Part shown: piece by piece, positions 1,417 through 19,461 of the stretch
How the letters are laid out: each line of letters begins with the position of its first letter
Numbering within the stretch: position 1 is the stretch's first letter
Virus record (IMG/VR): IMGVR_UViG_3300037246_001013
Location: 1-23,360 of that record
From: a virus
Strand: one strand, 5' to 3'
DNA: 23,360 nucleotides
The notes under the pieces: generated by a model
Seen by the model: only the letters and a program-made list of their open reading frames with translations
The model's database searches: none
What the model was told of the DNA's origin: nothing
Program-made: the position numbers and the translations under genes

Positions 1417-1872
1417 ATGCAATATAAGCCAAGAACAATCGTTATAGATTGGCTAAATACCATCTGGAAGACAGACCTCCCATCCAACGCAAAATATATC
1501 GCTTGTTACCTCAGAAGATTTATGAATTCTGAGCATGATATGGCGTGGCCTAGCCTCCGGAAAATTGAAGGCGAAACAGGATTATCAAGACCGACAGTAG
1601 TCAAGTATTTGAAGATTCTTGAGGCCGAAGGCTGGCTTGCAATTAAGCGCGGAGACATGGAATCGAGCAGCATTTATTACGCCTGTTTCCCAGAGGGGGT
1701 GGTAAAGGAGCTTAACCAGGGTGGTAAAACTGAGAGCAATAGGGTGGTAAAGGAGCTTTACCGTAATAAACAAGTAGAAGTAAACAAGAGAAATAAGGGG
1801 AAAGGGAATTTTGTATCTACCAGAGGCAGAACACTTCAAGAAGACCTGTCTGACACATCGTGGGCAGACTAA
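1417..1872 (+). CDS. Replication initiator, lambda O-like, with N-terminal winged HTH
   Basis: A 151-residue protein. Residues 21-78 form a winged-helix domain of the HTH_36 type (LPSNAKYIACYLRRF, then AWPSLRKIEGETGLSRPTVV with the recognition helix, then a wing around EGWLAIKRG), the usual N-terminal domain of phage O-type initiators. The middle part repeats VVKEL twice because the DNA beneath carries iterons (1697-1758). In lambda the origin also lies within the O gene, and O binds it. The protein ends in TLQEDLSDTSWAD, a motif repeated at the end of the neighbouring 95-residue protein. It lacks the longer C-terminal domain of O proteins, which the downstream protein may supply. No Shine-Dalgarno is obvious at the ATG. 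The initiator role is inferred from fold plus in-gene repeats. Confidence 0.7.
   Translation: MQYKPRTIVIDWLNTIWKTDLPSNAKYIACYLRRFMNSEHDMAWPSLRKIEGETGLSRPTVVKYLKILEAEGWLAIKRGDMESSSIYYACFPEGVVKELNQGGKTESNRVVKELYRNKQVEVNKRNKGKGNFVSTRGRTLQEDLSDTSWAD
1697..1815. other. Candidate replication origin: three iterons plus A-rich tract
   Basis: GGGTGGTAAA occurs three times, at 1697, 1719 and 1742, so the period is 22-23 bp, about two helical turns. Copies one and three extend to an identical 17 bases, and copy three is a perfect dyad, GGTAAAG-GAG-CTTTACC (1746-1762); copy one has one mismatch. Directly downstream lies a strand-biased A-rich, C-poor tract to about 1815. Iterons followed by an A-rich segment inside the initiator gene is the layout of lambda ori. 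The repeats also encode the duplicated VVKEL, so protein-level constraint alone cannot be excluded. Confidence 0.6.
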
Positions 1873-2176: not shown

Positions 2177-2464
2177 ATGACACTAGCACTGGTACAACAG
2201 CAGACAATCGGGATCAACCAAGAATATTTTGCAGAGTGGGTAGCCTACAGGGAGGAAGACCTACACAAGCCGATGACACCGCGAGCCATCAAGATGCTCC
2301 AGAAGAAACTTCTCAACTACAGTGAATCAGAGCAGGAGAGGCTAATCTGCAACGCCATAGAAATGAATTGGCGAGGCGTATACTGGACAGACCCCCCCCG
2401 GCAATGCAGCACAAAGCAAACCACACTCCAGCAAGACCTCACAGACGTAAGTTGGGCCAACTGA
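2177..2464 (+). CDS. Second replication protein, O/DnaD-like C-terminal domain
   Basis: A 95-residue protein. An ATG exists at 2156, but the one at 2177 has GGAG 8 bases upstream and is preferred. Residues 20-68 (EYFAEWVAYREEDLHKPMTP, a basic helix, then CNAIEMNWRGVYW) match the pattern W.xYR..x.kPxTp...xxxAIxxxWxGxxx seen at the C-terminal end of many phage replication initiators. It ends in TLQQDLTDVSWAN, nearly identical to the end of the upstream initiator. Together the two proteins look like the two halves of one O-type initiator, each with a copy of the terminal peptide. A host helicase or loader interaction is inferred. Its stop overlaps the next start by one base. Confidence 0.55.
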   Translation: MTLALVQQQTIGINQEYFAEWVAYREEDLHKPMTPRAIKMLQKKLLNYSESEQERLICNAIEMNWRGVYWTDPPRQCSTKQTTLQQDLTDVSWAN

Positions 2465-2727
2465 TGGGTGATATAGCCGACATGATGCTTGATGGCACTC
2501 TATGCCAGTGTTGCGGTGAGTATCTCGGTGGTGAAGATGGCTTCCCGGGGTACTGCCATCCTTGTCAGGTTGACCAAGACCGACACGATAAAGCAGCACG
2601 CAAAGCGGGCAACATAGAGAGAAACGCTCGCCAGAAGAAAGTAAAATGCCCGGAGTGCGGCAAGAAGGTGAAAGAGGTAGGTCTTGAAGATCATAGGCGT
2701 GACTCTCATGGCGCGGGGGCACACTGA
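2464..2727 (+). CDS. Small protein with two zinc-binding motifs
   Basis: An 87-residue protein whose ATG overlaps the previous stop (TGATG). A longer frame back to 2368 would overlap the replication protein and is unlikely. Cys14, 16, 17 and Cys31/Cys34 (CQCC ... CHPC) form a first candidate zinc knuckle. Residues 62-82 (CPECG, then EDHRRDSH) give a second of Cys2His2 spacing: C62, C65, H77, H82. A basic linker (KAARKAGNIERNARQKK) joins them. Such small zinc proteins often bind nucleic acid; its actual role is unknown. It sits in an overlapping early gene string (2177-3665). Confidence 0.65.
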   Translation: MGDIADMMLDGTLCQCCGEYLGGEDGFPGYCHPCQVDQDRHDKAARKAGNIERNARQKKVKCPECGKKVKEVGLEDHRRDSHGAGAH

Positions 2728-3035
2728 TGACAAAAGGCATACCCATCTCCCAAACCCGTACTCAAGGCGAGAAAAGGCGCCAATCCATCCTGCATTGCCA
2801 AGCTTACCTTGGTGGAGATCGCTTCAATGTCTATGAGGCAGCCCGTGTACTCCGCTGTAAGCCAAAGGCCACCTACCATGTCCTATCAGGCCTATGCCGC
2901 GATAAGCTGTTACAGAGCCATACAGAGGGCCGTAAGATACAGTACAGCAAGCCGGGGGTGGATTATCTGAAGATACCGTGGCGCTCGATATCGAATGATG
3001 AGCTGTTGTTGGATGAGAGTCTGGGGGTGTTATGA
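2727..3035 (+). CDS. Winged-helix DNA-binding protein, putative
   Basis: A 102-residue protein beginning at an ATG overlapping the previous TGA. Residues 30-75 look like a helix-turn-helix with wing: NVYEAARVLRCKPKATYHVL as the HTH, LSGLCRDKLLQ as the following helix, and SHTEGRKIQYS as a wing hairpin, similar to small ArsR- or MarR-like folds. The C-terminal 20 residues are acidic. It ends inside the start of the NinB-like gene (ATGA overlap). A regulatory or replication-accessory role is inferred; no specific family recognised. Confidence 0.55.
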   Translation: MTKGIPISQTRTQGEKRRQSILHCQAYLGGDRFNVYEAARVLRCKPKATYHVLSGLCRDKLLQSHTEGRKIQYSKPGVDYLKIPWRSISNDELLLDESLGVL

Positions 3036-3493
3036 CAGCAAAATCAGGCCAGCGGTGGAGTCTCGACAGTGCCGACAAGATCGACTTCTTTAATCAGCAC
3101 GTAGTCAATCTGTTTCAGGCCGGGAAGTCAGCCACGGTGCAATTCATAAAACCGGGTAGGTCAGTTGATCAGAATTCGATGATCTACGCATTGTACCGCC
3201 AGATCAGTGAGCAGAATGAATCGGAGGCGATGATCGATATCAAGCGCCACTGCAAACTCCATTTTGGGATAGGTATACTCAAGTCACATGATCCTGACTT
3301 CAGCGAATTCTATGACAAATGCATCAAGGGCATGTCATATCCGGACAAGTTGCTCCTGATGACGTATTTTGAGGTGACGAGTCGCTTTGATAAGGAAATG
3401 GCGACTGAATATATCGATACTGTGATCAGGGAATACACGAAAGAGGGTTATAGTTTGATCAATCCAGCGGAGATGAACAGTTATGTCAGATGA
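3032..3493 (+). CDS. NinB/Orf-like recombination mediator
   Basis: A 153-residue protein. RSVDQNSMIYALYRQISEQN (residues 43-62) corresponds to the RSLDQN-type signature of lambda NinB (Orf), which binds single-stranded DNA and SSB and can bypass RecFOR needs. The N-terminal part is a predicted beta/alpha segment, and the C-terminal part (ending near YIDTVIREYTKEGYSLINPA) matches the final helix after which NinB ends. Length is close to that of the family. A NinG-like gene follows two ORFs later, as ninB and ninG occur together in the lambda nin region. Identity beyond the signature is low, so this is a family-level call. Confidence 0.6.
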   Translation: MTAKSGQRWSLDSADKIDFFNQHVVNLFQAGKSATVQFIKPGRSVDQNSMIYALYRQISEQNESEAMIDIKRHCKLHFGIGILKSHDPDFSEFYDKCIKGMSYPDKLLLMTYFEVTSRFDKEMATEYIDTVIREYTKEGYSLINPAEMNSYVR

Positions 3494-3665
3494 AGAGAAA
3501 ATCATGTGGATTCTGGCTTATTCAGCCAAAGCATTCAGGGGTGAGATGAGCAAGGACTGCGTAGACTTCGCCGACAAGTCCCGAGCGGCGTATGTGGAGC
3601 GGTTTGTGGATGGTGCTGCCAATGATGAACATGGATGGTGTGGCGATGGTCCGGAGGCAGCGTAG
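3483..3665 (+). CDS. Hypothetical small acidic protein (60 aa)
   Basis: A 60-residue protein beginning at an ATG inside the end of the NinB-like gene, with GGAG about 9 bases upstream. The first 40 residues look helical and mildly amphipathic (MWILAYSAKAF, then SRAAYVERFVDG); the tail is Asp/Glu/Gly-rich. No known family. It overlaps the NinG-like start (TAGTG), so it is translated in the same string and may be a partner of either recombination protein. Confidence 0.55.
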   Translation: MSDEEKIMWILAYSAKAFRGEMSKDCVDFADKSRAAYVERFVDGAANDEHGWCGDGPEAA

Positions 3666-4072
3666 TGGCCTATTACAATAACAAGAAGCCGGGTGTCACA
3701 AGGTCTACAGCTGATTCATGGTTCTCAAAGGCTATAAGGCTCAGGGATGACCACCTGTGCCAAGCCTGTGGCAAATTAGGCACCGATAATGCGCACATTG
3801 TGGGGAGAAGGAACGGTTCCACTAGATATTGCGCTGAGAACTGCCTTTGTCTTTGCCGATCCTGCCACAATAAATACGGTGAGAATCCATTGGACTTCAG
3901 AGACCTCATCGTACGACTGTACGGCATTGACCGGCCTGATTACTTAATGGTCAAGAAGCGCGGCATACTCAAAAACACCGACGAGACCAAGAAGCTAGTG
4001 AGTAATCACTATCGACTTGAGTACCATAGGATGAATAACACCGGGACCAGAGACTTGGAGAGCTTCAACTGA
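3665..4072 (+). CDS. NinG-like HNH protein (putative recombination endonuclease)
   Basis: A 135-residue protein. I place the start at the GTG at 3665, which overlaps the previous TAG and has GGAGG 7 bases upstream; the ATG at 3635 lacks a site. Residues 18-31 (SWFSKAIRLRDD) and Cys32/Cys35, His44 (DNAHIVGRR), Asn59 and CRSCH (Cys64, Cys67, His68) follow the NinG/Rap and HNH pattern, with a likely structural zinc. NinG of lambda (Rap) resolves recombination intermediates. GENPLDF after the CxxCH is typical of this HNH subfamily. Co-occurrence with the NinB-like gene supports a recombination role. A stand-alone HNH nuclease is the alternative. Confidence 0.65.
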   Translation: MAYYNNKKPGVTRSTADSWFSKAIRLRDDHLCQACGKLGTDNAHIVGRRNGSTRYCAENCLCLCRSCHNKYGENPLDFRDLIVRLYGIDRPDYLMVKKRGILKNTDETKKLVSNHYRLEYHRMNNTGTRDLESFN

Positions 4073-19005: not shown

Positions 19006-19409
19006 TTGAGTCACTGGTCAGCACCCTAGTCGGCCCCATCACTGGGTTGATCTCAAAGTTTATCCCCGACAAGGATAAGGCTGCAGCACTGGCCCACGAA
19101 ATCGCCACCCTCGCAGACAAGCAGGCACATGACCAGATTATGGCCCAGTTAGAGGTCAACAAGGTCGAAGCGGCACATAAGAGTTTGTTCGTGAGTGGTT
19201 GGCGACCCGCAGTGGGTTGGGTGTGCGTAGCAGGCATGGCATTCAACTTCATTGTGGTGCCCCTTGTAGGGCCGCCAGTGGCAGCTTATTCCCAAGTCCA
19301 TCTTGAACTGCTGGAACTGGAGATGATGATGCCCGTCCTATTAGGTATGCTCGGTCTGGGCGGAATGAGATCGTACGAAAAGCGCAATGGCGTGGCACGA
19401 AATAACTAG
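19002..19409 (+). CDS. Holin, 3-TM gene-transfer-agent type
   Basis: A 135-residue protein starting by ATGA overlap. The pattern VNKVEAAHKSLFVSGWRPAV, then GWVCVAGMAFNFIVVPL is characteristic of the GTA_holin_3TM family (holin of 3TMs, for gene-transfer release). An amphipathic N-terminal helix (residues 1-20) and two further hydrophobic stretches (residues 70-95 and 100-122) fit. Holins open the inner membrane so that the endolysin reaches the wall. It ends in a positively charged tail. The two-and-a-half copies of a hairpin repeat follow its stop. Confidence 0.8.
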   Translation: MIESLVSTLVGPITGLISKFIPDKDKAAALAHEIATLADKQAHDQIMAQLEVNKVEAAHKSLFVSGWRPAVGWVCVAGMAFNFIVVPLVGPPVAAYSQVHLELLELEMMMPVLLGMLGLGGMRSYEKRNGVARNN

Positions 19410-19461
19410 CAGCGGCTAGCCCCTGCGGGGCAGCGGCTAGCCCCTGCGGGGCAGCGGCTAG
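19410..19461 (+). repeat. Tandem GC-hairpin repeat after the holin gene
   Basis: Two identical 21-base units (19410-19430 and 19431-19451) plus the first 10 bases of a third (19452-19461). Each unit contains the palindrome GCTAGC and the hairpin GCCCC-TGC-GGGGC. They begin right after the holin TAG and may fold as a double terminator or stability element. Tandem identity suggests recent duplication. Confidence 0.85.

Follow-up and report, generated by a model that had tools for sequence, protein, structure and literature searches.

A candidate origin inside a phage initiator gene

Does a short repeat inside a predicted initiator gene mark the place where an uncultivated phage begins to replicate its DNA? 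The record that raises this question, IMGVR_UViG_3300037246_001013, is a viral contig of 23,360 bases, and the window analyzed here covers all of it. Judging from sequence comparisons, we consider it very probable that the locus is a tailed-phage replication origin lying inside its own initiator gene and working by iteron binding, melting of an A-rich tract, and helicase recruitment. The original prediction had likewise called it a likely lambda-like origin, a reading that now draws support from the profile of the initiator, seven relatives with the same layout, and constraint at the level of DNA.

The gene that contains the candidate origin, ORF1 (1417 to 1872, plus strand), encodes a protein of 151 amino acids. 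This protein matches HTH_36 in Pfam (7.9e-10). The phage families that it matches best, which include phrog_270 (6.8e-12) and the O-like phrog_678, consist of replication initiation proteins. In the predicted structure (mean pLDDT 62), a winged helix spans approximately residues 12 to 90 and the remainder is of low confidence. A fold search with this model returned a generic winged helix; chains 4pql, 4pt7, and 5kbj, which we take to be RepA, match only at that level. Searched by sequence against the PDB, ORF1 produced MarR-type matches at E values of 0.0017 or weaker, while a search of NCBIfam returned nothing useful, and RepA_N (PF06970) was absent from the 14 Pfam families listed for ORF1 at E values up to 0.1. 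On its Pfam and PHROG profiles and its predicted fold, ORF1 is assigned as an O-like/HTH_36 phage replication initiator, the function originally predicted for it. An HNH endonuclease gene lies just upstream (819 to 1325; phrog_99, 8.2e-42), and NinB-like (3032 to 3493) and NinG-like (3635 to 4072) recombination genes are found downstream, as in lambdoid phages.

Three copies of GGGTGGTAAA occur within ORF1 on the plus strand, at 1697 to 1706, 1719 to 1728, and 1742 to 1751. The repeats and their period of 22 to 23 bp were recovered just as predicted, with spacings of 22 and 23 bp, and no further match with at most one mismatch was found on either strand of the 23,360-base record. Iterons 1 (1697 to 1717) and 3 (1742 to 1762) have 20 of 21 bases in common, with 6 and 7 of 8 dyad pairs, respectively, while iteron 2 (1719 to 1739) is a half site in which only the first 10 bases are retained (11 of 21 bases as in iterons 1 and 3; 1 of 8 dyad pairs). 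Inverted-repeat iterons of the kind known from lambda O/ori are thus seen in two of the three copies. Two copies had been predicted to share 17 identical bases with dyad symmetry. The 17-base identity stands (1697 to 1713 and 1742 to 1758), but this stretch differs from the dyad itself, GGTAAAG-GAG-CTTTACC, which is best developed in iteron 3 (1746 to 1762), the only copy with perfect arms in this 7+3+7 arrangement.

Directly after iteron 3 begins an A-rich tract (1763 to 1800, plus strand), which we regard as a candidate unwinding element given its low stability, its repeats, and the presence of TAATAAACAAGTA in relatives. It carries TAAACAAG at 1767 and 1781, in different reading frames, and Tandem Repeats Finder reports this array as well as that of the iterons. 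The strand bias noted in the original prediction is evident in the composition of positions 1763 to 1815 (27 A, 14 G, 10 T, and 2 C), and in stability the 40-mer at 1757 to 1796 ranks within the lowest 0.13% of the window's 40-mers.

Constraint on the repeats as DNA

Ten bases alone are weak evidence, and it is their clustering that decides. At least three matches of the GGGTGGTAAA type, allowing at most one mismatch, occurred somewhere in 15 of 100 shuffles of the whole window, but a 10-mer present three times within 100 bp is found at just two places in the window, the iteron array and a GC-rich hairpin repeat at 19409 to 19461. The latter might itself be proposed as the origin, since it comprises 2.5 perfect copies of a 21-bp unit in tandem within a 73-bp intergenic gap. 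We consider this extremely improbable: the unit is GC-rich and able to form a hairpin, the repeat, behind a holin gene, is distant from the initiator gene and has no A-rich neighbor, and it resembles a terminator or a REP-type element.

Alternatively, the array could reflect a repeated peptide in a flexible linker, with no role for the DNA. Iterons 1 and 3 share a reading frame and encode VVKEL twice (VVKEL...VVKEL), and the linker is predicted to be disordered or is modeled with low confidence. Iteron 2, in contrast, is read in another frame and encodes GGK. Because the spacings of 22 and 23 bp are not multiples of three, the same bases are read as VVK, GGK, and VVK, and two reading frames point to the DNA as the entity that repeats. 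Furthermore, when the synonymous codons of the ORF at 1417 to 1872 were permuted 20,000 times with the protein and codon usage preserved, a 10-mer appeared three times in only 6 permutations and an exact repeat of at least 17 bases in only 17. Dinucleotide shuffles gave these outcomes in 2 and 0 of 20,000 cases, respectively. Since the DNA repeat is rare even when the peptide is kept, and since relatives likewise carry iteron copies in mixed frames, we find the peptide explanation very improbable and conclude that the iterons are constrained as DNA, not as peptide.

This constraint sets ORF1 apart from the other genes of the window. None of 300 permutations reached its best-repeat score at offsets of 17 to 60, while none of 30 other window genes stood out by the same score, which was reached by at least 8% of permutations in each (100 permutations per gene, 40 for the two longest). 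In a wider set of 15 initiator-like genes, which leaves out the tailed proteins of contigs L016 to L019 described below, 13 had a repeat whose score was matched in no more than 3 of 300 permutations; the genes of L011 (180 of 300) and L020 (121 of 300) are initiator-like but lack such repeats.

Relatives with the same layout

A search of phages with the ORF1 protein matched 12 records, of which 8 were taken; H8 and H12 were left out, and H3 and H7 represent additional entries for pYD38-B and PVA1. Matches to Vibrio phages PVA1, 1.054.O, pYD38-B, 381E49-1, and 1.079.O had E values from 8e-29 to 6e-33, with 47 to 56% identity to ORF1 in the winged helix. A search with an alignment of these relatives added the viral contigs L012 and L013, while L014, the IMG/VR copy of PVA1, was dropped from counts as a duplicate. 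Since L009 closely resembles L006, and L013 closely resembles L004, the seven relatives represent about five lineages. HTH_36 was found in four of eight records searched. Peptide patterns taken from single proteins recovered no relatives in viral_contigs, and none of the 83 stretches that matched a pattern in a scan of genome_contigs encodes one. A plasmid search returned four weak matches at ~30% identity. In the literature searched, judged by title and the opening of the abstract, we found no paper dealing with replication origins in these Vibrio phages.

All seven relatives have a single gene of ~229 to 295 amino acids in which iterons just past the winged helix are followed by A-rich DNA. 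The core of the first iteron, T-GT-N5-AG-N4-AC, is kept in all eight aligned sequences (the window and its seven relatives), while the inner bases differ from phage to phage. The iteron sequence, originally described as private to this phage, is therefore private in its inner bases but shared in its core. In PVA1 and 1.054.O, the last three iterons start at positions 321, 343, and 366 of the coding sequence, compared to 285, 307, and 330 in the window, so that the 22/23 spacing and the reading frames are identical in all three. The middle copy of the window is a half site, and its position corresponds to that of the third iteron in PVA1. The same three phages also have TAATAAACAAGTA in common after the last iteron. 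Given the shared core, spacing, frames, and TAATAAACAAGTA, we take the array to be homologous between phages by sequence, with inner bases that have evidently changed in concert in each phage. In pYD38-B, 381E49-1, and 1.079.O, the dyad is weakly developed (2 to 4 of 7 pairs). Counted by themselves, GT-N11-AC dyads did not reach significance in the window (227 of 2,000 permutations) or in these three phages, and since this motif was derived from these very sequences, we keep it as a description only.

The placement of the array also bears on whether it might be an operator, through which the winged-helix protein regulates its own gene or genes downstream at the level of transcription while replication starts elsewhere. 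A winged helix that binds repeats in its own gene could be regulatory, and phage SPP1, according to excerpts of PMC6316719, has a second origin ~13 kb from that in gene 38, so a single site within a gene need not be the sole origin. However, the sites lie ~280 to 345 bases inside the gene, not at a promoter, in the window and its seven relatives, and they adjoin a conserved tract that melts easily, a feature not required of an operator. We therefore regard an operator as improbable and favor the origin.

An initiator that appears split over two genes

Overlooked in the original prediction was the C-terminal domain of the initiator, which appears to lie in a separate gene downstream. ORF1 stops after the A-rich part and a short tail, and the C-terminal, partner-recruiting domain is not in the same protein, unlike in lambda O. 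ORF1 matches the N-terminal part of phrog_678, while the C-terminal part (positions 222 to 308 of 346; 4.3e-7) is matched by ORF2 (2177 to 2464, plus strand), which encodes 95 amino acids with GGAG upstream of its start, or 102 amino acids from an alternative start at 2156. A search of phages with the ORF2 protein returned no match, and its structure model is poor (mean pLDDT 48). ORF2-type domains are found within longer replication proteins in contigs L020, L021, and L022.

Both proteins end in the tail TLQxDLxDxSWA(N/D). The ORF1 tail, GRTLQEDLSDTSWAD, is encoded at 1825 to 1872 (plus strand) and is identical to that of ORF2 at 11 of 18 residues, while the DNA of the two tails agrees at 30 of 51 bases and 8 of 17 third codon positions; since they differ in DNA, the duplication is not recent. 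The tail pattern was found in 6 of 11 records searched, the window alone having two tails, and it led to five viral contigs, L015 to L019. In L015, a single gene for a full O-like initiator (2367 to 3239, minus strand) combines TCCAACTTGGA-type repeats, an A-rich tract, the C-terminal domain, and a SWAN tail, while L016 and L017 encode stand-alone C-terminal domains with the same tail. A tail of the form DLTDTSWA also ends proteins of other families in L018 (3524 to 3760, minus strand; phrog_15768) and L019 (3038 to 3466, minus strand; phrog_2161). Another DNA sequence spelling the tail had no matches in viral_contigs, and none of four spellings was found in the literature searched.

The 304-bp gap between ORF1 and ORF2 (1873 to 2176) contains only tiny ORFs, at 1986 to 2057 (with AGGAG) and 2103 to 2174. 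An imperfect hairpin is present at 1943 to 1984. A group I or II intron between the ORFs was considered and rejected: the best Rfam match in the window (E value of 3.1) is unrelated, and an intron would not explain why both ORFs end in tails of their own.

The two ORFs might instead be remnants of a one-piece, O-like initiator gene that was broken, in which case the origin or the protein may no longer work. The single gene of all seven relatives, the match of ORF1 and ORF2 to opposite ends of one profile, and the gap devoid of larger ORFs are consistent with such a history. A mere stop, though, would not have supplied ORF1 with its own copy of the tail, the divergence of the tails in DNA argues against a recent duplication, and tailed C-terminal domains stand alone in L016 and L017. 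While we consider a broken gene unlikely, its probability is appreciable. We think instead, from the profiles and tails, that the initiator is split over two genes and probably works as two proteins. More tentatively, and with more doubt than confidence, we propose a split-initiator replicon in which origin recognition and partner recruitment reside on two proteins and the shared C-terminal peptide is a portable docking tag, carried by otherwise different phage replication proteins, that would direct the two halves to a common partner, for instance the replicative helicase.

How the origin might work

Based on analogy with the origins of lambda and SPP1, we envision binding, melting, and recruitment as successive steps. 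The winged helix of ORF1 (approximately residues 12 to 78) would bind the three iterons, with each dyad iteron probably taking two subunits and the half site one. As 22 and 23 bp amount to about two helical turns, the bound proteins would line up on one face of the DNA. The bound complex would then melt the adjoining A-rich TAAACAAG tract, and the O-like C-terminal domain on the ORF2 protein may bring the replicative helicase, probably that of the host, to the opened strands. The shared tail may dock the ORF1 and ORF2 proteins to the same partner. Among the window proteins scanned, a subset of the ORFs, there was no match named for a helicase or a loader, and no P-type loader was recognized. 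The original prediction had suggested a cumulative GC profile as a check; GC skew showed no clear turn at the iteron site, which counts against the origin. As this linear contig may be a fragment, a further origin could be located beyond its ends.

This uncultivated phage now has a candidate origin, as does a group of Vibrio phages. With a shared core, phage-specific inner bases, fixed spacing, and mixed frames, the array offers a system for examining how an initiator evolves in step with the binding sites inside its own gene. Should the initiator prove to be split, the binding of the origin and the recruitment of the helicase would be separable on two proteins, and the shared C-terminal tail would point to a docking peptide that we did not find described in the literature searched.

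Comparison with known systems

The closest analogy is to lambda and lambdoid phages, in which, according to excerpts of PMC7466680, the origin lies inside the O gene as tandem inverted-repeat iterons mid-gene, beyond the part for DNA binding, and an A+T-rich tract comes next. The window shares this order. It differs in its iteron sequence, in having three sites of which one is a half site, and in placing the C-terminal domain on a separate gene, with no P-like loader recognized among the proteins scanned. Similarly, excerpts of PMC6316719 describe oriL of SPP1 within gene 38, which encodes the origin-binding protein, as direct repeats with an A+T-rich unwinding element, an arrangement inside the initiator gene that resembles that of the window. 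SPP1 encodes both a helicase loader and a helicase, according to the same excerpts, whereas neither was recognized among the window proteins scanned.

The five Vibrio phages have a homologous winged helix, the same iteron core, nearly the same spacing, and an A-rich tract. Unlike in the window, their initiators are one-piece genes with differing C-terminal parts and other inner iteron bases, and no SWA tail was seen in their translations. Among plasmids, excerpts of PMC5703833 place the origin of pSK41 centrally within rep and report that the N-terminal domain of pPR9 Rep, a phage-like pfam13730 (HTH_36) domain, was exchanged together with the origin region. These staphylococcal plasmids differ from the window in that their C-terminal domain is fused, and RepA_N was not matched in ORF1. 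Origins within genes are already known from lambda O, SPP1 gene 38, and pSK41 rep, and the site in the window joins that kind. What looks new here, as far as sequence comparison can suggest, is an initiator encoded by two genes whose products share a C-terminal tail.
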